Positions 3,018 through 20,557 of a DNA stretch of 23,639 nucleotides are shown piece by piece. Each line of letters starts with the position of its first letter. Within the stretch, counting starts at the first letter, position 1. Origin of the DNA: a virus; IMG/VR virus record IMGVR_UViG_3300036829_000182, positions 1 to 23,639 of that record; one strand, 5' to 3'. The notes under the pieces are model-generated. The model was not told the origin of the DNA. It saw only the letters and a list, made by a program, of their open reading frames with translations, and did not search any database. The translations under genes and the position numbers were made by a program.

Positions 3018-3734
3018 ATGACGAAGGCACTCACGATCCGCAATGCAGGGACCCGGCCGGAAATCTTGCTGTACGGCACGATCGGTTACGATTGGGGTGA
3101 CGACTACGTGTCGGCCAAGCAATTCGCCGATACGCTGGCCGGCCTCGGGAATGCGGCCGAGATCGGCGTACGCATCAATTCGATGGGGGGCAGCGTGGCG
3201 GATGGCTTTGCCATGTACAATGCGCTCAAAGAGAATCCCGCGAAGATCATCGTCGACGTCGTGGGCTTCGCCGTCAGTGCCGCGTCGACCGTGGCGATGG
3301 GCGGCGACGAAATCCGCATGCACGCCAACGCGGTCATGATGATTCACCCGCCGGCCAATTACGTGTGGGGGTTCGCCGACGATTTTCGGAAGCAGGCCGA
3401 AGTGCTCGACAAGCTGCAAGCGTCGATCGCCGGCGTGTATGCCAGCCGCGCGGGGAAAACGGCTGATGAATTTTCGAAGCTGATGGACGCCGAGACCTGG
3501 TTCAACGCCGAGGAGGCGTTGGCGGCGGGCCTGGCGACGGCCATTGTGCCCAACGCGGGGGCGGAGACCGAGGCGCCGGCCGAGAATGCGGAAGACGATC
3601 CGGCCATGCTCAACTTGTACCGCAACGTGCCGACCTGGGTGCGCGAGAAAATGGTCAACCGGTTCGGCCGCGAGAAATTCACAAACGTGCTTCGCCGGCG
3701 ACGGCTGGAATTGCTGGAGAAGGCGACGTCGTGA
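3018..3734 (+). CDS. Prohead protease, ClpP-like serine peptidase (S14 type)
   Basis: Likely cleaves the capsid N-terminal scaffold domain during head maturation. The 238-residue product has the ClpP fold pattern: INSMGGSVADGFAMYNAL at 54-70 (oxyanion-loop strand), nucleophile Ser87 in GFAVSAAS, His110 in MMIHPP and Asp157 in LMDAETWF. The Ser-His-Asp spacing agrees with ClpP. The C-terminal 60 residues are acidic then basic and end beyond the core fold. The start is supported by AAGGA seven bases upstream, one of few clear ribosome binding sites among the structural genes. It follows the portal, as in HK97-like phages, but the capsid gene is displaced 3.3 kb away by an opposite-strand cassette. 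Confidence 0.9.
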   Translation: MTKALTIRNAGTRPEILLYGTIGYDWGDDYVSAKQFADTLAGLGNAAEIGVRINSMGGSVADGFAMYNALKENPAKIIVDVVGFAVSAASTVAMGGDEIRMHANAVMMIHPPANYVWGFADDFRKQAEVLDKLQASIAGVYASRAGKTADEFSKLMDAETWFNAEEALAAGLATAIVPNAGAETEAPAENAEDDPAMLNLYRNVPTWVREKMVNRFGREKFTNVLRRRRLELLEKATS

Positions 3735-3822
3735 AGAGGCACGCGGCTTGACGGTCGCGCGCAACACCGGACGTCGATCGACTTTCCCCGTCATTGCGGG
3801 CCGTCATGTGGCTTGCCTCTTC
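3733..3822. repeat. Inverted repeat element, family E, copy 1
   Basis: Arms 3733-3759 and 3797-3822 (GAAGAGGCAMGC ... GCTTGCCTCTTC) enclose a loop holding the palindrome GTCGATCGAC. The element at 9191-9279 matches this one over its whole length when read on the opposite strand, including the loop (CGCGCGCAACAMCGGACG), so the two are homologous copies in inverted orientation. It overlaps the protease stop codon. Confidence 0.85.
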
Positions 3823-3827
3823 GCGAT

Positions 3828-4361
3828 TCAGTCGGGCCGCTTCTCTTTCGCGCGCTTCGCCGCGTCACGGGCCCACTGCGACAACTCCGGCAGCTCCCCC
3901 TCGATCTCCTGGCGGACCTGCCCATCCTGCTCGCGGCGATCGGCCGCGAGCGCCACCGGGGGCACGCTCTGGCCGTCGACGACGGCCTTCCCCGGCCACT
4001 GGCGCAGCCCGACGCTATGCCGCGTCGCGCCGTGCGCCAGTGTCACGATCAGCACGCGCATCCGCGAGAGGAGCGAGTCGCGCCGCTGCGGCAGATGATC
4101 GTCGTGCACGATGTAGCCCAGCGACCCATTGAGCCCGTCCAGTTTCGCAGGCGGCAATTCGACGGTGATCGTCCCGAGTTGGGCCGCCTGAATCGTTTCA
4201 TCCACATCGGGCAGCCGCCGGGCCGCCAGTGCCAGCGGATCGGCCTGCGCGTCGTGCTCATCCTCCAGTGACAGCGGCAGACAAATGCGCAGCTCGCGGC
4301 CGTTGACGTACAGGTCTTTGCGCTGGCGGTTCGACAGGCGGAAAATCACGCGCTCGCTCAT
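3828..4361 (-). CDS. Hypothetical protein, last gene of the opposite-strand cassette
   Basis: A 177-residue soluble protein with no motif I can place. It starts MSERVIFRLSNRQRKDLYVN and contains acidic, basic and Gln-rich patches, ending in a basic tail (ARDAAKRAKEKRPD). The start at 4361 rather than 4445 is decided by a strong AGGAG seven bases upstream. The sequence IFRLSNRQRKDLYVNGRELRICLPLSLEDE reads like a compact beta domain. It is the 3' gene of a minus-strand group, convergent with the protease across a family E inverted repeat. Function unknown. Confidence 0.75.
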   Translation of the reverse strand: MSERVIFRLSNRQRKDLYVNGRELRICLPLSLEDEHDAQADPLALAARRLPDVDETIQAAQLGTITVELPPAKLDGLNGSLGYIVHDDHLPQRRDSLLSRMRVLIVTLAHGATRHSVGLRQWPGKAVVDGQSVPPVALAADRREQDGQVRQEIEGELPELSQWARDAAKRAKEKRPD

Positions 4362-4438
4362 GATGGCTCCTGAAATGTAAAACATGCCGCCCCGCGGAAA
4401 AACTTGGCATCGTCGCCGCCGCCATTCATTCAGCAACA

Positions 4439-4464
4439 GCTTCAATGGGGCCGCGGGGCGGCCC
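4439..4464 (-). repeat. CRISPR-repeat-like hairpin, unit 2
   Basis: On the minus strand this reads GGGCCGC CCC GCGGCCC followed by CATTGAAGC, that is a 7-bp GC stem with a 3-base loop and an ATTGAAGC tail. Many type I CRISPR repeats have this layout: a central stem, then an 8-base ATTGAAAC-like handle. GCTTCAATGGGGCCGC is identical to the unit at 4539-4554, exactly 100 bases away. A second complement, CCGCCCCGCGG near 4386-4396, could compete for pairing. It lies in the 207-base gap between two cassette genes. Confidence 0.5.
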
Positions 4465-4538
4465 GAAAAATCAAATCAAAACAATGCCGGCGGCGGAATT
4501 CTCTCGGCGAATGAATCGCAACAAGCTGCAATGACTCC

Positions 4539-4563
4539 GCTTCAATGGGGCCGCCGCCGGCCC
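4539..4563 (-). repeat. CRISPR-repeat-like hairpin, unit 1
   Basis: On the minus strand this reads GGGCCG GCGG CGGCCC then CATTGAAGC. It shares 16 identical bases with unit 2 while its stem differs but still pairs, so the hairpin shape is kept although the bases changed. It ends six bases before the stop codon of the 4569-5204 gene. The 100-base period is too long for an ordinary repeat plus spacer unit, so this is not called as an array. Confidence 0.45.
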
Positions 4564-4568
4564 AAACA

Positions 4569-5204
4569 CTAATAAACGAACTCCATGATTCTGGCCCGGT
4601 CGCCCCCCCACACGGCCAGGGCGTAGAATTCTCCCGGCGCATCCTTCCACTCGACGACGATTGCCGGGTCGGGGTTGACCTCCTGCCATTCCTCCGGCTG
4701 GTAGAGGACGCCGACCCATTTCGCGCGGCGGCGGACTTTCTCGTCGCGCAGAATTTCACGGGCCCGACGGGGGATGACGGGCATCCCCAGCGGGACGAAG
4801 GCCCGCACTCCGTCGGCCTGGTCGTGCGGGCGATAGCGCACGTAGAGACTGCTGCAGCGGTCGCCGGCCATCGCGACATAAAATGTGCCGTCGCTGTCGC
4901 GCTTACCGTTGCCGGCGCTGATTGACACGGTCGGATCGACAATGGCCCACAGGGGCAGTCCGTCCGCGCGGTGCTCCGACAGCAGTCCCGCCAGGTCGAT
5001 CCGCCGACCGCGGCGGCGCGCGACGAGCGCGCGTTGCGACTGCCGCAGGCCGATCATCAGCTTATCGCGCGATTGCAGCTCGGCCGGCAGCCCTCCGCGG
5101 TAGCGGTCCATGATCGCCTGCCGCCGTCGCAGAATTTCTCCCGCCGCTTTTCTGGCCGCGCCGCGCTTCAGCCGCGGCTCGACACTCGTCATAATGTCCG
5201 CCAT
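4569..5204 (-). CDS. Hypothetical protein of the opposite-strand cassette
   Basis: A 211-residue protein, MADIMTSVEPRLKRGAARKA onward, with a basic helical N-terminal third (many Arg/Lys up to about residue 75) and a beta-rich C-terminal part (GTFYVAMAGDRCSSLYVRYR; WVGVLYQPEEWQEV; FYALAVWGGDRARIMEFVY). I do not recognise the family. The N-terminal part could bind nucleic acid, but this is inference from charge only. The start at 5204, not 5528, is set by AGGGAG about eight bases upstream. The 98-base gap before it holds two stable hairpins. Confidence 0.75.
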   Translation of the reverse strand: MADIMTSVEPRLKRGAARKAAGEILRRRQAIMDRYRGGLPAELQSRDKLMIGLRQSQRALVARRRGRRIDLAGLLSEHRADGLPLWAIVDPTVSISAGNGKRDSDGTFYVAMAGDRCSSLYVRYRPHDQADGVRAFVPLGMPVIPRRAREILRDEKVRRRAKWVGVLYQPEEWQEVNPDPAIVVEWKDAPGEFYALAVWGGDRARIMEFVY

Positions 5205-5233
5205 GATCTCATCTCCCTTTCGAGATGGGGTCT

Positions 5234-5301
5234 GGCCGGCGGGAGGTGAACTCTCCCGCCGGCCGTTTCGTCTCGGGCCGCGAGCGGCGCTCGCGGAGCC
5301 C
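5234..5301. other. Two tandem GC-rich hairpins in a cassette intergenic gap
   Basis: Hairpin one pairs 5234-5245 with 5253-5264 (GGCCGGCGGGAG, perfect, 7-base loop). Hairpin two pairs 5278-5285 with 5289-5296 (CCGCGAGC, perfect, 3-base loop), extended by GGG/CCC. Both lie between the stop of the 5303-5530 gene and the ribosome binding site of the 5204 gene. Neither is followed by a T tract on the minus strand, so a role in mRNA processing or stability seems likelier than termination. Confidence 0.7.
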
Positions 5302-5302
5302 A

Positions 5303-5530
5303 CTAACTCTCTTGGCGGCGCTTGAGCTCGAGCAGGGCCGCCGGTGACCCGTGCTCGATTAACAGATCGTCGCCGGCCAGGGCCAGCAGGGCATCGTATT
5401 TCTCGACGCGGCGGCAGTGGATCTTGCTCAGATTCTCCCGCTGCCGCGAGCCGGGGGCGAAGTGCCGCATGTCGTCCAGCGCCCGCCGGCATTGCGATTC
5501 CGCAAAAACTAATTGGTCGATGGTGCACAT
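5303..5530 (-). CDS. Small hypothetical protein (75 residues)
   Basis: The product MCTIDQLVFAESQCRRALDDM onward is mostly helical and ends LLALAGDDLLIEHGSPAALLELKRRQES. No known motif is visible. The start at 5530 is supported by AGGGG six bases upstream and lies just two bases from the stop of the preceding 5533-5814 gene, so the two are probably translated from one message. The longer frame from 5713 overlaps that gene and is not used. Confidence 0.7.
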   Translation of the reverse strand: MCTIDQLVFAESQCRRALDDMRHFAPGSRQRENLSKIHCRRVEKYDALLALAGDDLLIEHGSPAALLELKRRQES

Positions 5531-5532
5531 AA

Positions 5533-5814
5533 TTAACCCCTGGCGAACCATTCGCGGCCGACGGTGACAGCCAGCGTCGAGCAGTGATACCAGGTCGGCC
5601 AGCCGTAGGCGTTCGGGTATCGCACTTCGGTCTTGCCGCTCAATGTCGTCCAGTAGTACGAGCGGCCGGTCATCCGCGGGGCCGCGTCGCCGTCGACCAG
5701 GTCGACCGGGCAATTGCTGTGGGCGTTGGCGGCCTGGCGGGCGGCGCGGCGTTGGGCCAGGGTGAGAGCGCGGGGGGCGAAGAAATTGGCGAAGGTCGCG
5801 AGAATCGGGTGCAT
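5533..5814 (-). CDS. Small hypothetical protein, first gene after the cassette's main promoter
   Basis: A 93-residue protein beginning MHPILATFANFFAPRALTLA, with a short hydrophobic and basic N-terminal stretch and an aromatic C-terminal half (SYYWTTLSGK; YPNAYGWPTWYH). No family recognised. AAGGAA lies shortly before the ATG. It is the first gene downstream of the operator-controlled promoter near 6019-6046, reached after a leader of about 200 bases that contains a long-range stem (5888-6001). Confidence 0.7.
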   Translation of the reverse strand: MHPILATFANFFAPRALTLAQRRAARQAANAHSNCPVDLVDGDAAPRMTGRSYYWTTLSGKTEVRYPNAYGWPTWYHCSTLAVTVGREWFARG

Positions 5815-5887
5815 GTCATTTCCTTCAGGGCCTCGGTGTCGCCCACCGAGGGAGGCTGGCGGCGATTAGCAGCCGGAAAAATCACGA

Positions 5888-6001
5888 GCGAACCAACTCG
5901 ACCCCCGCCGAGCAACTGAGTAGCTATACCCTCGAGTCTGGCCGTCTACTGCGGGGCAGGCGAGCATCCGAATGCTGTGCGGGGGGGTCGGGTTGGTTCG
6001 T
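5888..6001 (-). other. Structured leader RNA candidate of the minus-strand cassette
   Basis: GCGAACCAACTCGACCCCCG (from 5888) pairs with CGGGGGGGTCGGGTTGGTTC (near 5980-5999), closing a loop of about 70 bases with a stem of roughly 20 pairs. Inside, AGCAT/ATGCT (5963-5976) makes a perfect 5-bp hairpin with a 4-base loop, and CTCGAG is a small palindrome. On the minus strand the closing arm is followed by GTGATTTTTC, a short U run. The structure lies between the predicted promoter (6019-6046) and the 5814 start codon, so it could be an attenuator, a terminator or a separate small RNA. Confidence 0.55.
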
Positions 6002-6018
6002 TCGCATGTCATGTCCCT

Positions 6019-6046
6019 ATTATACTTATTGTCGGATGTCCGTCAA
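6019..6046 (-). promoter_or_regulatory. Sigma-70-like promoter of the small-gene cassette
   Basis: Read on the minus strand: TTGACG (6046-6041), a 16-base spacer, then TATAAT (6024-6019). The -10 is a perfect consensus and the -35 has one mismatch. The operator palindrome 6030-6045 covers most of the -35 and the spacer, so a bound repressor would block polymerase. Transcription would start near 6012 and read toward the gene at 5814. Confidence 0.75.
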
Positions 6047-6072
6047 TATGCAATTGACGGAATTCCGACAAT
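6028..6072. promoter_or_regulatory. Double operator: two 16-bp imperfect palindromes
   Basis: TGTCGGATGTCCGTCA at 6030-6045 and TGACGGAATTCCGACA at 6055-6070 are each close to the perfect palindrome TGTCGGATATCCGACA at 6333-6348. They are also complements of each other across 6028-6047 and 6053-6072 (18 of 20). Centre spacing is 25 bases. They lie upstream of and overlapping the cassette promoter, just downstream of the helix-turn-helix gene, the likely source of the binding protein. Confidence 0.75.
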
Positions 6073-6087
6073 TTTCCAGAAATAAAT

Positions 6088-6318
6088 TCAGCCCGCATTT
6101 TCCCGCTGTTTTCGCGCTCGTTTCGGCCGGTCCGTCGTCGCCGGGCGGCCCGGCCCTGGGCGAATGAGTCCCCGCAGCCGGTCGGCGTCGGCGGGAGTGA
6201 AGATCCAGGTCGTCCCCACCTGCTCGCCGATCTGGTTGGCCCGCGCCACGCGCGAGACGGTGTCAGGCGTGCAGCCGATCGAGGCGGCGATCGAGGCGGT
6301 CGTGTGGTGCGTGCTCAT
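6088..6318 (-). CDS. Small helix-turn-helix regulator (MerR / excisionase-like fold)
   Basis: A 76-residue DNA-binding protein. Residues 7-27 (TASIAASIGCTPDTVSRVARA) form a helix-turn-helix, and residues 30-41 (IGEQVGTTWIFT) match the wing strand of MerR/excisionase-type domains. The C-terminus is basic (RPKRARKQRE). The start at 6318 is preferred to 6387 because it begins at the domain, while the upstream stretch is promoter and operator DNA. No Shine-Dalgarno is seen, and the predicted transcript start is only a few bases upstream, suggesting a leaderless message. The 16-bp palindromes at its own promoter and the neighbouring one suggest autoregulation and control of the cassette. Confidence 0.78.
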   Translation of the reverse strand: MSTHHTTASIAASIGCTPDTVSRVARANQIGEQVGTTWIFTPADADRLRGLIRPGPGRPATTDRPKRARKQRENAG

Positions 6319-6324
6319 GCGCTC

Positions 6325-6356
6325 TATATATATGTCGGATATCCGACAATTGTCAA
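6325..6356 (-). promoter_or_regulatory. Promoter of the regulator gene with operator in the spacer
   Basis: Minus strand: TTGACA (6356-6351, perfect -35), an 18-base spacer, then TATATA (6332-6327). The perfect 16-bp palindrome TGTCGGATATCCGACA (6333-6348) fills the spacer, a typical autorepressor site. The expected transcription start is near 6320, next to the ATG at 6318. Confidence 0.78.
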
Positions 6357-6382
6357 CAGCGGATAACGACGGACGGGTAAGG

Positions 6383-6462
6383 CCCACGGATGGCTAGGCA
6401 ATCCCACGGATTTTTCTGCGTCTGTTTTTCTTTATCCGTGGGATTGCCTAGCCATCCGTGGG
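6383..6462. repeat. Inverted repeat, family B, perfect 29-bp arms
   Basis: Left arm 6383-6411 and right arm 6434-6462 are exact complements, with CCCACGGAT twice in each and GGCTAGGCAA between. On the plus strand TTTTCTCTTTTT follows. The 32 bases 6431-6462 are identical to 15265-15296. It separates the regulator from the 6494-6724 gene. Confidence 0.95.
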
Positions 6463-6493
6463 TTTTCTCTTTTTGCGCGCTGACCGATGGTCA

Positions 6494-6724
6494 TTACGCA
6501 ATCTTGCCATAGCGGTCGATCAGCGCGCCAATGACTGCTTCCAGGGGCATGCCGCCCAGTACGAAGATCTCGCTGACGCCAGGGGTGAATCGTTCACGCC
6601 GATAATGCACGTTCTCATACAGACCGCCACTGACGGCCGCGGGGACGACGACGTCATTTAGTCTCGGGTCGATCGGGATCCGGCGCCCGTCATAAGGGCC
6701 GCCGATGAAGAGGATATCGTGCAT
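6494..6724 (-). CDS. Small hypothetical phage protein with GGPYDG motif
   Basis: A 76-residue product, MHDILFIGGPYDGRRIPIDP onward, ending IGALIDRYGKIA. The N-terminal GGPYDGRR followed by a predicted strand is common among short phage and actinobacterial or planctomycete hypothetical proteins, with no known function. It is the most upstream gene of the minus-strand group, separated from the regulator by the perfect family B hairpin and therefore probably transcribed separately. Only a weak purine stretch (AGAAGA) precedes the start. Confidence 0.65.
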   Translation of the reverse strand: MHDILFIGGPYDGRRIPIDPRLNDVVVPAAVSGGLYENVHYRRERFTPGVSEIFVLGGMPLEAVIGALIDRYGKIA

Positions 6725-6805: not shown

Positions 6806-6981
6806 AACAGTGTCATCTGACGCCACGCGGCCAAACCTAGTTGCGGCTGCGTCTGTGTGAGTTGACCAGATGCAGGCTTTCAACGCCCGCCTTGTCCGGC
6901 GTTCGAACCGCGCACCGAAAAAACAATACGTCACACCCCGTATTCGTGCCCGCAGGTCCGCCGGACTTTTCTTCGATTTGC

Positions 6982-7056
6982 CAGTTGTCAGTAGTCCGTT
7001 GTCAGTTGTCGTCGCCGGCAGCTCGTCACAACTGACCACTGACAACTGACGACTGA
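6982..7056. repeat. Inverted repeat, family C (GTCAGTTGTC words)
   Basis: Left part 6982-7010 (CAGTTGTCAGTAGTC, GTTGTCAGTTGTC) pairs with right part 7027-7056 (CAACTGACCACTGAC, AACTGACGACTGAC). It ends 16 bases before the capsid start codon. The same family lies at 10553-10620. Confidence 0.88.
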
Positions 7057-8704: not shown

Positions 8705-9166
8705 ATGCTCGGAAATGTGAACCTGCTCGAAATCGCCGAGATCAGGAAAATCGACAACGGCCACGCGGCCGGGACGACGACGATCACGCCCACGTCGATC
8801 GACATGTCGGGCTTCGATGCGATCGCCGTCGTCGTCGACCTGGGGGCGGTGACCGACGGCTCGGTCATGGACCTGAAATTGCAGTCGGGCGCGGCGAGCA
8901 ACGGCAGCGACGCGGCCGACATGAAGGACGCGGCCGGCAACGTGCTGCACGCCGGCCTGACCGGCGCGACGAGCTCGAACGCGATGATCGCCGTCGACGC
9001 CACGCGCCCGAACCAGCGGTATGTGACCGCCGTCTTCGCGCGGGGCACGCAGAACGCCGTCATCAATACGATGATCGCCATCCTGTACCGCTTCCGCAAT
9101 TCAGCGCCCGTGGCGCAGGGGGCGACCGTGCTGGCGAGCAAGATTGCGCCCGTGGCGGGGAACTAA
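8705..9166 (+). CDS. Probable head-associated structural protein
   Basis: A 153-residue protein with alternating strands and Gly/Ala-rich loops: IRKIDNGHAAGTTTITPTSI, FDAIAVVVDLGAVTDGSVMD, RYVTAVFARGTQNAVINTMI. This pattern (DGHAAGTT, an RYV...RGTQNAVI segment) recurs in small proteins encoded directly after capsid genes in many siphoviruses. A decoration or head-completion role is likely from position but not shown. GGTGA just upstream of the ATG is a partial ribosome binding site. No signal peptide or membrane segment is visible. Confidence 0.75.
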   Translation: MLGNVNLLEIAEIRKIDNGHAAGTTTITPTSIDMSGFDAIAVVVDLGAVTDGSVMDLKLQSGAASNGSDAADMKDAAGNVLHAGLTGATSSNAMIAVDATRPNQRYVTAVFARGTQNAVINTMIAILYRFRNSAPVAQGATVLASKIAPVAGN

Positions 9167-9190
9167 CGAGCGAACAGTAGGCGACGGCGC

Positions 9191-9279
9191 GAAGAGGCAA
9201 GCCACATGACGGCCTCACGCGCAAAGACAGTCGATCGACGTCCGTTGTTGCGCGCGACCGTCATGTCGCTTGCCTCTTC
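9191..9279. repeat. Inverted repeat element, family E, copy 2 (reverse orientation)
   Basis: Arms 9191-9212 and 9258-9279 (GAAGAGGCAAGC... / ...GCTTGCCTCTTC). Read on the minus strand it aligns along its whole length with 3733-3822, including the loop with GTCGATCGAC. A third fragment, GGCTTGCCTCTTCACG, lies at 19492-19507. Confidence 0.85.
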
Positions 9280-9308
9280 ACGATCCCGTTTTTGAAAAGC
9301 GCTTCCTT

Positions 9309-9800: not shown

Positions 9801-9806
9801 CGAATT

Positions 9807-9879
9807 GTGTTTGGTGTTTTGTGTTTAGTGTTTGACGCGCCGCCGGAAATCTAAACACCAAACACCAAACACCAAACAC
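9807..9879. repeat. Inverted repeat, family D (AAACACC words)
   Basis: Left arm 9807-9833 (GTGTTTGGTG TTTTGTGTTT AGTGTTT) pairs with right arm 9853-9879 made of AAACACC tandem heptamers. The right arm ends three bases before the connector ATG, leaving no room for an SD sequence. Confidence 0.92.
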
Positions 9880-9882
9880 ACC

Positions 9883-10552: not shown

Positions 10553-10620
10553 CAGTTGTCAGTTGTCAGTAGTCAGTTGTCGGTAGCAGCAACTGACCAC
10601 TAACCACTGACCACTGACAA
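10553..10620. repeat. Inverted repeat, family C (GTCAGTTGTC words)
   Basis: CAGTTGTCAGTTGTCAGT and neighbours (10553-10580) pair with AACTGACCACTAACCACTGA and following bases (10590-10620). It starts right after the connector stop and ends four bases before the next ATG. Confidence 0.88.
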
Positions 10621-13054: not shown

Positions 13055-13138
13055 AGGCAGAAAAATCTGGGGCAGAAAAATAGCCCCGTTTGATTCGGCA
13101 GTCTCTTGGTCATTTTTCTGCCCCCCATTTTTCTGCCT
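13055..13138. repeat. Inverted repeat, family A (GCAGAAAAAT words)
   Basis: Arms 13055-13081 and 13112-13138 (27 bases each) are nearly perfect complements, each with two GCAGAAAAAT words. It is the third family A element and resembles 2913-2991 closely. Confidence 0.93.
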
Positions 13139-13881: not shown

Positions 13882-13948
13882 TCCTTTGCGTCCTTTGCGC
13901 CTTTGCGTGAGGAAATGTTTTCACGCAAAGGCGCAAAGCACGCAAAGA
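13882..13948. repeat. Inverted repeat, family F (GCGCAAAG words)
   Basis: Left part 13882-13910 (CCTTTGCGTCCTTTGCGCC, TTTGCGTGA) pairs with 13921-13948 (TCACGCAAAGGCGCAAAGC, ACGCAAAGA) around a 10-base loop. It separates the chaperone and tape measure genes and ends 15 bases before the tape measure ATG. Confidence 0.92.
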
Positions 13949-16268: not shown

Positions 16269-16643
16269 ATGGCCAACGAAATTACGCTCACGATCAACAA
16301 CGCCCTGAAGAACGGCGCGCTGGCCGACAGCTACAATCCGGGGCGGATCCAGATCACTCAGGCGGTGCAACTGCTGTTCGCCGACGTCGTGTCGCTCGTC
16401 GCCGCGACGGATACGGTCATCACGTTCGGCCACATTGTGACGGCCGGCCTGGTGCACCTGATCAATCTCGATCCCACGAATTACGTGGAATGGGGCCCCG
16501 AGTCGGCCGGTGCCCTGGTGCCGGTCGGCAAGCTCATGCCGGCCGACGCGCCGGCCATCTTTCGCTTTGATCCGGGGGCCACGCTGCGGATGAAGGCGCA
16601 CACCGGCGCCTGCGACGTGCTGGTCATGTGCTGGAACAATTGA
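16269..16643 (+). CDS. Small virion protein, minor tail type
   Basis: A 124-residue beta protein: MANEITLTINNALKNGALAD, QITQAVQLLFADVVSLVAAT, LVHLINLDPTNYVEWGPESA, GKLMPADAPAIFRFDPGATL RMKA. The pattern NLDPTNYVEWG...GKLMPAD...FRFDPGATL RMKA is frequent in small phage tail-tip or minor structural proteins of beta-sandwich type. A fragment of the family D repeat (GTGTTTGGTACT at 16253-16264) precedes its start, and no ribosome binding site is seen. Specific role unknown. Confidence 0.75.
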   Translation: MANEITLTINNALKNGALADSYNPGRIQITQAVQLLFADVVSLVAATDTVITFGHIVTAGLVHLINLDPTNYVEWGPESAGALVPVGKLMPADAPAIFRFDPGATLRMKAHTGACDVLVMCWNN

Positions 16644-16644
16644 A

Positions 16645-16710
16645 TTGGTGTTTGGTGTTTCGTGTTTAGTGTTTGGTACTAAACACCAAACACCAAACAC
16701 CAAACACCAT
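16645..16710. repeat. Inverted repeat, family D (AAACACC words)
   Basis: Left arm 16645-16677 (TTGGTGTTTGGTGTTTCGTG ... TTTGGT) pairs with right arm 16681-16709 of tandem AAACACC heptamers, leaving a 3-base loop. The right arm ends six bases before the next ATG. Close to the family D element at 9807-9879. Confidence 0.92.
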
Positions 16711-16715
16711 TGCCA

Positions 16716-17039
16716 ATGAAAACCTTCACCGACAAAGCCGTCGCGCGCATCCAGCGCGCCGTGCAAAAAAGCGAAAGCGATCGCCCGCAGGCCCCGCAGA
16801 GCTGGGGCCAGCGAATTTTGCAGGCGCTCCCCATCCGCCTGGGTAAGACGACGACGTCGCACACCAAGGGCTCGACGCACGACGTCAACGTGTATTGGGG
16901 GACGACGAAGGGCTCGGAGACCTGGGACAGCGTCGAAACCATTTCGGTGTATAACCGGTTTGCCAATGTGGCCAGCGGCAAATGGGTGTTTTGCATTTGG
17001 CTCTTGGGCGGCTGGGAAGTGTTCGTGGCCGAATGCTAA
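16716..17039 (+). CDS. Hypothetical protein, first gene of an overlapping five-gene chain
   Basis: A 107-residue protein. Residues 1-45 are basic and helical (FTDKAVARIQRAVQKSESDR), and the rest is beta-rich and aromatic (VNVYWGTTKGSETWDSVETI, KWVFCIWLLGGWEVFVAEC). I do not recognise it. It opens a run of five genes that all overlap their neighbour by a few bases, so they are probably translated as one unit. The ATG at 16716 is used rather than the TTG at 16710, which lies in the repeat arm. Confidence 0.65.
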   Translation: MKTFTDKAVARIQRAVQKSESDRPQAPQSWGQRILQALPIRLGKTTTSHTKGSTHDVNVYWGTTKGSETWDSVETISVYNRFANVASGKWVFCIWLLGGWEVFVAEC

Positions 17040-19318: not shown

Positions 19319-19714
19319 GCCACGCCCGCAGGATGGGACGGATAGGACTCATACGACGGATGCGTGCCGTCGTTCGCGCGGCGGCCGCCGCGAACCGGTA
19401 ATGACACGCAGTCAGCGCGCTTAGCCCGGCCCTCCCCGCCAGCTCGGTCCACCTGGTCGCGGCGATCGCCGGCACGACCGGCCCCTCGTCGGGCTTGCCT
19501 CTTCACGTTTTCCCGTTTTTCGCCCCTTCCCGATCGGGAACTGCAGTTTTTTCCCTCCGGACCGGCTTGCCGAGCTGGTAACGCTCGTTTTGACCCTCCG
19601 CGGGTCAAAATCGACGCACCAGGATGCCCCAGGAACGACGCACGGGCGTTGGTCCGACCCACGGGTCATCCCTTCCGACAGCTTTTCCTGCGCCCACGTG
19701 GGCGAGGCCCCGCC
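19319..19714. other. 396-base gap upstream of the integrase, rich in palindromes
   Basis: I see no convincing gene. It holds a half family G element (19335-19353), a family E arm fragment (GGCTTGCCTCTTCACG at 19492-19507), the perfect 14-base palindrome TTCCCGATCGGGAA (19527-19540), the hairpin TTTTGACCC-TCCGC-GGGTCAAAA (19588-19610), and the perfect palindrome CGCCCACGTGGGCG (19691-19704), which ends 10 bases before the integrase ATG. These could be integrase or regulator binding sites, or part of an attachment region. Confidence 0.55.
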
Positions 19715-20557
19715 ATGCTCGTCGCCGATCTCGTGACTGCTTTCCTGGGCTGGACTGCGCGCCATCGGGCGCCGGCCACGGCCCGATTCTATGCCAGCCG
19801 GTTAAAGGAATTCGTCCGGGCCTTCGGCAGCCGGGCCTGGTCGACGCTCAAGCCCCTCGACGTCGATGTGTATCTCGAGGCGGCTGGCCAGGGGCAGAGC
19901 GATTCGACCAGGCGGCACAACGCCGTCGCCCTGAAATCGCTGCAGACTTTCAGTCTCGCGCAAAAGCTGGCCGACGTGCCGATCTTCGGCAAGCTGGAAA
20001 AACCGCCGATGGGTCAACGCCAGCGGATCCCGACCGATGATGAGATCGATCGACTTCTCGAGCATGCGCCGCTTTCGTTTCGGCTGATCTATTCGGCACT
20101 CTCCCAAACTGGGGCCAGGCCTGGCGAACTGTGCGGCCTGCGCATCGAGCAGATCAATTTCGCGCACGGCCCGCACGGCCTGATCACGTTCCTCAAACAC
20201 AAGACGGCGCGCAAAACCGGCAAGCCGAGATATATACCAATAGGAAAGAAGTTCGCGGCCCTCCTCGCGGTGGCGATCGCCGGCAGGACGTCGGGCCCGG
20301 CATTCCGGACCGAACGGGGCAAAGCGTGGACAGTCGGCCACTTGAGCTCAATGCACCGGGCCCTGCGCGACCAGGCCGGCCTGCCGCAGGACCTGGTGCT
20401 ATATCTGACACGGCATGGGTTCGCCACGCGCCAGCTCGAGGCGGGGGCCGATCTCAAGACGGTGGCCGACATGCTGGGCCACAGCAGCGTCAAAACGACC
20501 GAGCGGTACACGCACCGCGATATCAGCACGCTGGCCGATGATCAGGATCGCATTTAG
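19715..20557 (+). CDS. Tyrosine recombinase / phage integrase
   Basis: Catalyses site-specific recombination. The 280-residue protein has an N-terminal core-binding domain (1-95: FLGWTARHRAPATARFYASR) and a catalytic domain with Arg135 (QTGARPGELCGL), Lys163 (KHKTARKTG), Arg233-His234 (YLTRHGFAT), His256 (LGHSSVKTTERY) and the nucleophile Tyr265. The first position of the HxxR box is Tyr230 rather than His, a known variation. Length is like Xer-type recombinases. The ATG at 19715 was chosen because the upstream frame to 19364 looks non-coding. It lies inside the structural region, unusual for phages, and a 24-base repeat follows its stop. Confidence 0.9.
   Translation: MLVADLVTAFLGWTARHRAPATARFYASRLKEFVRAFGSRAWSTLKPLDVDVYLEAAGQGQSDSTRRHNAVALKSLQTFSLAQKLADVPIFGKLEKPPMGQRQRIPTDDEIDRLLEHAPLSFRLIYSALSQTGARPGELCGLRIEQINFAHGPHGLITFLKHKTARKTGKPRYIPIGKKFAALLAVAIAGRTSGPAFRTERGKAWTVGHLSSMHRALRDQAGLPQDLVLYLTRHGFATRQLEAGADLKTVADMLGHSSVKTTERYTHRDISTLADDQDRI

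Follow-up and report, generated by a model that had tools for sequence, protein, structure and literature searches.

The window analysed here is the whole of a 23.6-kb viral record (IMG/VR IMGVR_UViG_3300036829_000182; 23,639 nucleotides, nt), and our subject is the cassette at 3828-6724, where six open reading frames (ORFs) on the minus strand separate the protease gene from the capsid gene and where the 207 nt that separate P0002 from P0001 harbour two tandem hairpin RNA units, u1 and u2. Each of these is a minimal CRISPR (clustered regularly interspaced short palindromic repeats) unit, in which two half-repeats pair around a guide of ~36 nt and the stem covaries across phages. The features of the locus are as follows.

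3828..4361, minus strand: P0001, 177 residues, the operon's last gene, directly downstream of the RNA units (codon bias z 8.2)
4386..4462, minus strand: u2, composed of 5' arm, GCGGCCCCATTGAAGC, guide, TTCCGC, 3' arm and T-rich tail, with a 12-bp outer stem
4485..4562, minus strand: u1, of the same anatomy as u2 with different guide and arms, and an 11-bp outer stem
4569..5204, minus strand: P0002, 211 residues, an orphan without relatives (codon bias z 9.2)
5303..5530, minus strand: P0003, 75 residues, an orphan (codon bias z 5.2)
5533..5814, minus strand: P0004, 93 residues, an orphan and the operon's first gene (codon bias z 6.4)
5876..6012, minus strand: structured leader, with pairing 22-nt arms followed by TGATTTTTC; a putative attenuator or small RNA
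6019..6046, minus strand: near-consensus promoter of the P0004-P0001 operon, TTGACG-16-TATAAT (11/12)
6030-6046 and 6055-6071, no strand assigned: two operator dyads overlapping the operon promoter
6088..6318, minus strand: P0005, 76 residues, a small helix-turn-helix (HTH) protein and presumed autoregulator
6327..6356, minus strand: P0005 promoter, TTGACA-18-TATATA (boxes read by eye), its spacer filled by an operator at 6333-6349
6383..6462, no strand assigned: perfect 29-bp inverted repeat between P0006 and P0005, with a T run on the plus side
6494..6724, minus strand: P0006, 76 residues, an orphan with a GGPYDGR motif, set apart from the other genes by the hairpin (codon bias z 5.0)

One flanking gene encodes a head maturation protease of the ClpP type (phrog_94, E value 1e-69) and the other a major capsid protein (phrog_10, E value 4e-55). 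When scored with a model of the phage's own codon usage, trained on its structural genes, all six ORFs displayed positive in-frame codon bias (0.25-0.42 bits per codon; z 5.0-9.2 against shuffles), with negative scores in the other two sense frames and scores near zero or lower in the antisense frames. Together with the ORF positions and the identities of the flanks, this confirms the six minus-strand genes of the original prediction; Shine-Dalgarno-like sequences precede P0001, P0002, P0003, and P0004. The six products gave nothing above cut-off in PADLOC, Pfam, or NCBIfam. P0001, P0002, P0004, and P0006 have no homologs in phage or viral collections, with the exception of a P0001 homolog known only from viral record G014, and P0002 has none in plasmids. 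AlphaFold2 models were poor (predicted local distance difference test scores of 51.9 for P0001 and 39.0 for P0002), and a sequence search of the PDB with a P0001 profile returned no match.

The two RNA units, which the original prediction overlooked, share one order: a 3' CRISPR half-repeat (ending in GCGGCCCCATTGAAGC, and in the form GCGG-CCCCATTGAAGC in the units), a variable guide of ~36 nt, and a 5' half-repeat (beginning TTCCGC), closed by a long stem. The stems of u1 and u2 differ from each other by compensatory changes and leave GGCCCCATTGAAGC unchanged. The whole gap has a fold z of -3.3, and u1 and u2 score 61.3 and 59.8 bits, respectively, with covariance model R1, in whose training set both were included. 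Neither unit has two or more direct repeats flanking a spacer, given that each holds half-repeats only, and neither is a complete solitary repeat, the repeat being split into two halves around the guide. Rfam searches gave microRNA-like false positives on hairpins only. Integron attC sites and plain terminators were tried as identities for u1 and u2 and dropped because CCCCATTGAAGC is invariant and existing CRISPR arrays share the repeat ends.

Viral contigs were scanned with the pattern GGCCCCATTGAAGC N30-48 CCGC, which fixes GG, the handle, and CCGC, and 67 stretches were recovered. About 10 distinct stretches are CRISPR arrays with repeats of the form TTCCGC..GCGGCCCCATTGAAGC and a period of mostly 71-80 nt; tail or terminase genes occur on the contigs of some. 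Another 23 are units without a full repeat and with a closing outer stem 10-30 bp long (u1, u2, and 21 in other viral contigs); matches showing neither stem nor array are probably due to chance. The distance to CCGC is mostly 38-46 nt in units and mostly 39-44 nt in arrays. Near-identical two-repeat mini-arrays were also seen (L034, L035, L038, L043, L045, L046, L047, L055, L056, L057, L075, and L094), flanked by an outer palindrome, GCGCGTCTC / GAGACGCGC. One 100-kb contig (L099 and L100, record G005) harbours two separate units that differ in guide and have stems of 25 and 30 bp, and in another viral contig (L072, 9006-10255) a DEDDh-type exonuclease gene is flanked by a CRISPR array and a further repeat, one of the guides matching 29/36 at a site 55 nt from the array. 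A text search of the literature for the repeat end found nothing relevant to CRISPR subtype, and scans of genome collections for the phage's host gave no match.

Across the 23 units, pairing of a 16-pair stem reaches 90.8% of cells, compared with 56.6% after shuffling, and its covariation is 0.846 against 0.176 (0/500), a signal that is lost when the stem is slid by one base; a 12-pair stem in an alignment that retains the guides is 97.2% paired, with covariation of 0.859 against 0.157. The units were partly selected for having a stem, for which swapping arms between units served as control: at least 10 consecutive pairs occur in 0.65% of swaps and in 96% of real arms. Because the scan pattern itself prescribes GG, the handle, and CCGC, independent evidence comes neither from the innermost pairs nor from the constancy of the 14-nt handle (exact in 22/23 units, and part of the search pattern); it comes from the outer pairs, and here the arms differ in sequence in every phage with compensatory changes throughout. 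The covariance model found no match in relatives that lack the cassette. These data bear on the proposal that the units are decayed remnants of two-repeat mini-arrays without present function, any effect of the cassette coming from its proteins. Mini-arrays with this repeat do occur in other phages (L034, L035, and others), but decay would destroy the 10-30 bp arms, their phage-specific sequences, and the compensatory changes, and the handle is intact in all units but one, although the search required it. We consider decay, already strained by the covariation, improbable.

The ends of the units are also informative. TTTT closes 9 of the 23, as opposed to 2.5% of random sites, and a -10-like box lies just upstream in 7 of the 23, as opposed to 11%; because both are enriched, some units are probably free-standing small RNA genes. 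The T runs, and the many intergenic hairpins of this phage, would also be expected of ordinary terminators or intergenic repeats between the genes of an unrelated moron. Such elements have no need of CCCCATTGAAGC, of a 36-nt guide-sized loop, or of a CRISPR half-repeat on each side, which makes this explanation the least probable of those considered.

We asked whether the guides behave as guides using 70 of them, from units and arrays in 38 viral records, and matches on their own contigs within 1.5 kb. A strong, diverged match was found for 5/70 guides (7%), compared with 0.24% on the flanks of other contigs and none for reversed guides; the distribution of all guide scores is shifted accordingly (Mann-Whitney p 7e-6 against permuted and 0.008 against reversed guides). 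Examples include a 30/36 match in the adjacent tail spike gene (G028), 27 aligned bases beside the start of a single-stranded DNA-binding protein gene (G022), a 29/36 match in a terminase ORF (G027), and a 29/36 match 55 nt away (G017). In the cases that were read, differences between guide and target fall mostly at third codon positions. Diverged near matches would be the expected appearance of guides directed against a related phage, the carrier's own copy having diverged, and they are in line with the targets reported near the arrays of virus mini-arrays (PMC6858448). A match to a related virus was obtained for some of the other units and, in 1.13 Mb of viral DNA, not for u1 or u2, and some units of other phages are probably aimed at rival phages.

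The position of the matches, 12-55 nt from the unit or array in G028, G022, G020, and G017, would also suit RNA-guided homing, in which a relative infecting the same cell has its allele cut by the guide beside the unit's own place and acquires the unit during repair, in the manner of free-standing homing endonucleases; an HNH nuclease gene in the G014 cassette points the same way. However, such proximity has also been reported for virus mini-arrays without sign of homing (PMC6858448), there is no evidence of unit movement, and u1 and u2 have no near match. Homing therefore appears highly improbable.

A second cassette links the RNA units to P0001. Record G014 (L098) is a distant phage (portal and capsid proteins 33% and 36% identical, respectively, to those of the window; a different protease type, Peptidase_S78) with a plus-strand cassette that occupies this slot and has the same layout. 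Its order is HTH gene, HNH gene, a gene of 312 residues, one RNA unit, and the only known P0001 homolog (L098:5494-5889; 39% identity, E value 1e-18 for the pair). Given that the G014 unit directly precedes this homolog, the order of unit followed by P0001 is common to two distant phages. The G014 HTH protein is 26% identical to P0005, with a similar PGRP tail, and a promoter-like site in that cassette overlaps a dyad. In G035, an additional unit followed by TTTTTT adjoins a gene weakly similar to the HTH genes of both cassettes. P0001 probably either acts as the RNA's partner or is an anti-defence protein encoded in that operon.

Within the window, the dyad TGTCGGANNTCCGNCAA occurs at 6030, 6055, and 6333 only (three sites in 23.6 kb; 0/100 shuffles reach as many matches), and all three lie upstream of either P0005 or the P0004 operon. 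Because operators sit on both the operon promoter and the P0005 promoter, P0005 is likely to be autoregulatory. Its PHROGs match is to an excisionase family (phrog_1840, E value 1.4e-4), with nothing over Pfam cut-offs, and the placement of the operators suggests an autorepressor rather than an excisionase. The leader of the operon shows strong folding (z -4.0; 0/200 shuffles), its hairpin preceding a T run.

Comparison with relatives indicates that the slot between protease and capsid is variable. In L010, whose capsid protein is 79% identical, gene order is kept and the slot holds a single plus-strand gene for a DNA/RNA non-specific endonuclease (Endonuclease_NS, PF01223, E value 6e-33); none of the six cassette proteins is present in L010. 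L009 matches the window at identities equal to those of L010. In the more distant relatives L011, L017, and L027, only a short gap separates protease and capsid. Since the content of the slot differs in this way, the cassette is, on gene content, cargo; its genes as virion structural genes were ruled out by the relatives that lack them, and from the same four relatives (L010, L011, L017, and L027) we infer that it is dispensable for virions. The original prediction of a moron-like, non-virion cassette with its own regulator and two promoters is therefore supported, both by these absences and by the TGTCGGANNTCCGNCAA operators on the two promoters. Its proposal of a part in superinfection exclusion or anti-defence has gained support, chiefly from the two CRISPR-like RNA units and not from the protein products.

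Several further features of the window were noted. Hairpins built of reiterated short motifs lie between genes at 785-848, 1148-1211, 6982-7055, 9803-9880, 10553-10620, 13055-13138, 13884-13947, and 16637-16718. The one before the capsid gene is absent from L010, which has a different hairpin after its nuclease gene, and for this reason these intergenic hairpins seem mobile. The protease gene is followed immediately by a long hairpin (3729-3825), which recurs in both orientations at 9176-9289, after a gene ending at 9166. A block of ~146 bp just upstream of the capsid gene (6830-6973) corresponds to L010 8830-8971 with 83% conservation; it is probably noncoding, given several single-base indels between the two; its distal arms GTCCGGCG..CGCCGGAC precede a T run, and an exact 21-mer located it in no other viral contig. 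A tyrosine recombinase gene among the late genes (19364-20557, plus strand) suggests a temperate phage.

We read 3828-6724 as a regulated cargo cassette in which u1 and u2 would be repeat-less, one-guide CRISPR RNA (crRNA) genes that turn the CRISPR machinery of the host on competitors, and assign this reading a probability of roughly 0.5. It draws on (i) arrays with the same repeat ends, (ii) shared guide geometry, (iii) covariation, (iv) near guide matches, (v) the unit-P0001 order, and (vi) the operators and promoter. Its main rival is that the hairpins are RNA anti-CRISPR (Racr-like) decoys, which mimic the crRNA repeat end, occupy host Cas proteins, and block immunity, the guide being filler. 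Solitary repeat units in phages act in this manner (PMC10651486), and several observations that favour decoys weigh at the same time against crRNA genes. The outer stem encloses the guide in a loop, where its target might be out of reach; the G012 unit (L102 near 5023) retains the same hairpin with 12 nt only where the guide would be, and is a candidate pure decoy; and no target was found for u1 or u2, whose best matches in 1.13 Mb of viral DNA (22-24/36) equal background. Also unfavourable to crRNA genes are the lack of any credible match for the gap or cassette in plasmids and phages, and the failure to find cas1 or Cas12f-like genes in 36 viral records, many of them fragmentary, that carry units or arrays. 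On the other hand, nearly all units keep a guide of CRISPR size, a length that filler does not need, and in several cases the guide is a diverged copy of a phage gene beside the unit, which filler does not need either. On balance we regard the decoy explanation as rather unlikely, and clearly the more credible of the alternatives to crRNA genes.

If u1 and u2 are crRNA genes, the cassette would be transcribed from the operator-controlled promoters under P0005, and a host CRISPR RNA-processing enzyme would cut beside ATTGAAGC. The cut would yield a normal-looking crRNA with handle, guide, and a 3' helix in which the other arm supplies the second strand. A host effector would then load this crRNA and attack DNA matching the guide, the likeliest target being a competing phage or mobile element. 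Since the unit is without direct repeats, its guide could not be lost through repeat recombination. More tentatively, and short of an even chance in our estimation, the units would represent a widespread class of phage small RNAs, namely circularly permuted, repeat-less, one-guide crRNAs that are closed (and partly terminated) by their own stem, act with a host effector against rival phages, and are carried in regulated cassettes with P0001 as partner.

Should this hold, more CRISPR guides would exist in phages than repeat-based finders count, given that such tools search for full repeats; the published solitary-repeat finder demands 90% repeat coverage for a full match and treats anything shorter as partial (PMC10651486), so half-repeat units would be missed. 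An otherwise anonymous moron would become a specific hypothesis, with a defined RNA motif to search by, a crRNA design that nature has split, a testable mechanism by which phages exclude one another via the host immune system, and, in P0001, a first candidate protein working with such RNAs. No description of half-repeat, stem-closed units was found in the literature searched, which left out most subscription literature, and novelty is accordingly not proven.

Three known systems provide the closest comparisons. Virus-borne mini-CRISPR arrays, such as those of SPV1/SPV2 and of phages (PMC6858448, PMC11656645), resemble the units in having few guides and no cas genes, in lying between genes of a viral genome, and in carrying guides akin to related viruses' genes close to the array. 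They differ in that the units hold one guide between two mutually pairing half-repeats and no full repeat; furthermore, no leader was found for the units, and the window's two guides have no known target. Solitary repeat units, or Racrs, known as RNA anti-CRISPRs in phages (PMC10651486), are likewise single structured RNAs derived from a CRISPR repeat and carried in phage genomes, sometimes near small anti-defence genes; a Racr, however, is one whole repeat, whereas the units have a split repeat with a guide-length segment inside the hairpin. Finally, the cassette resembles phage morons as an opposite-strand, self-regulated insertion within a structural operon that varies among relatives, and differs from them in holding guide-like RNAs besides proteins.

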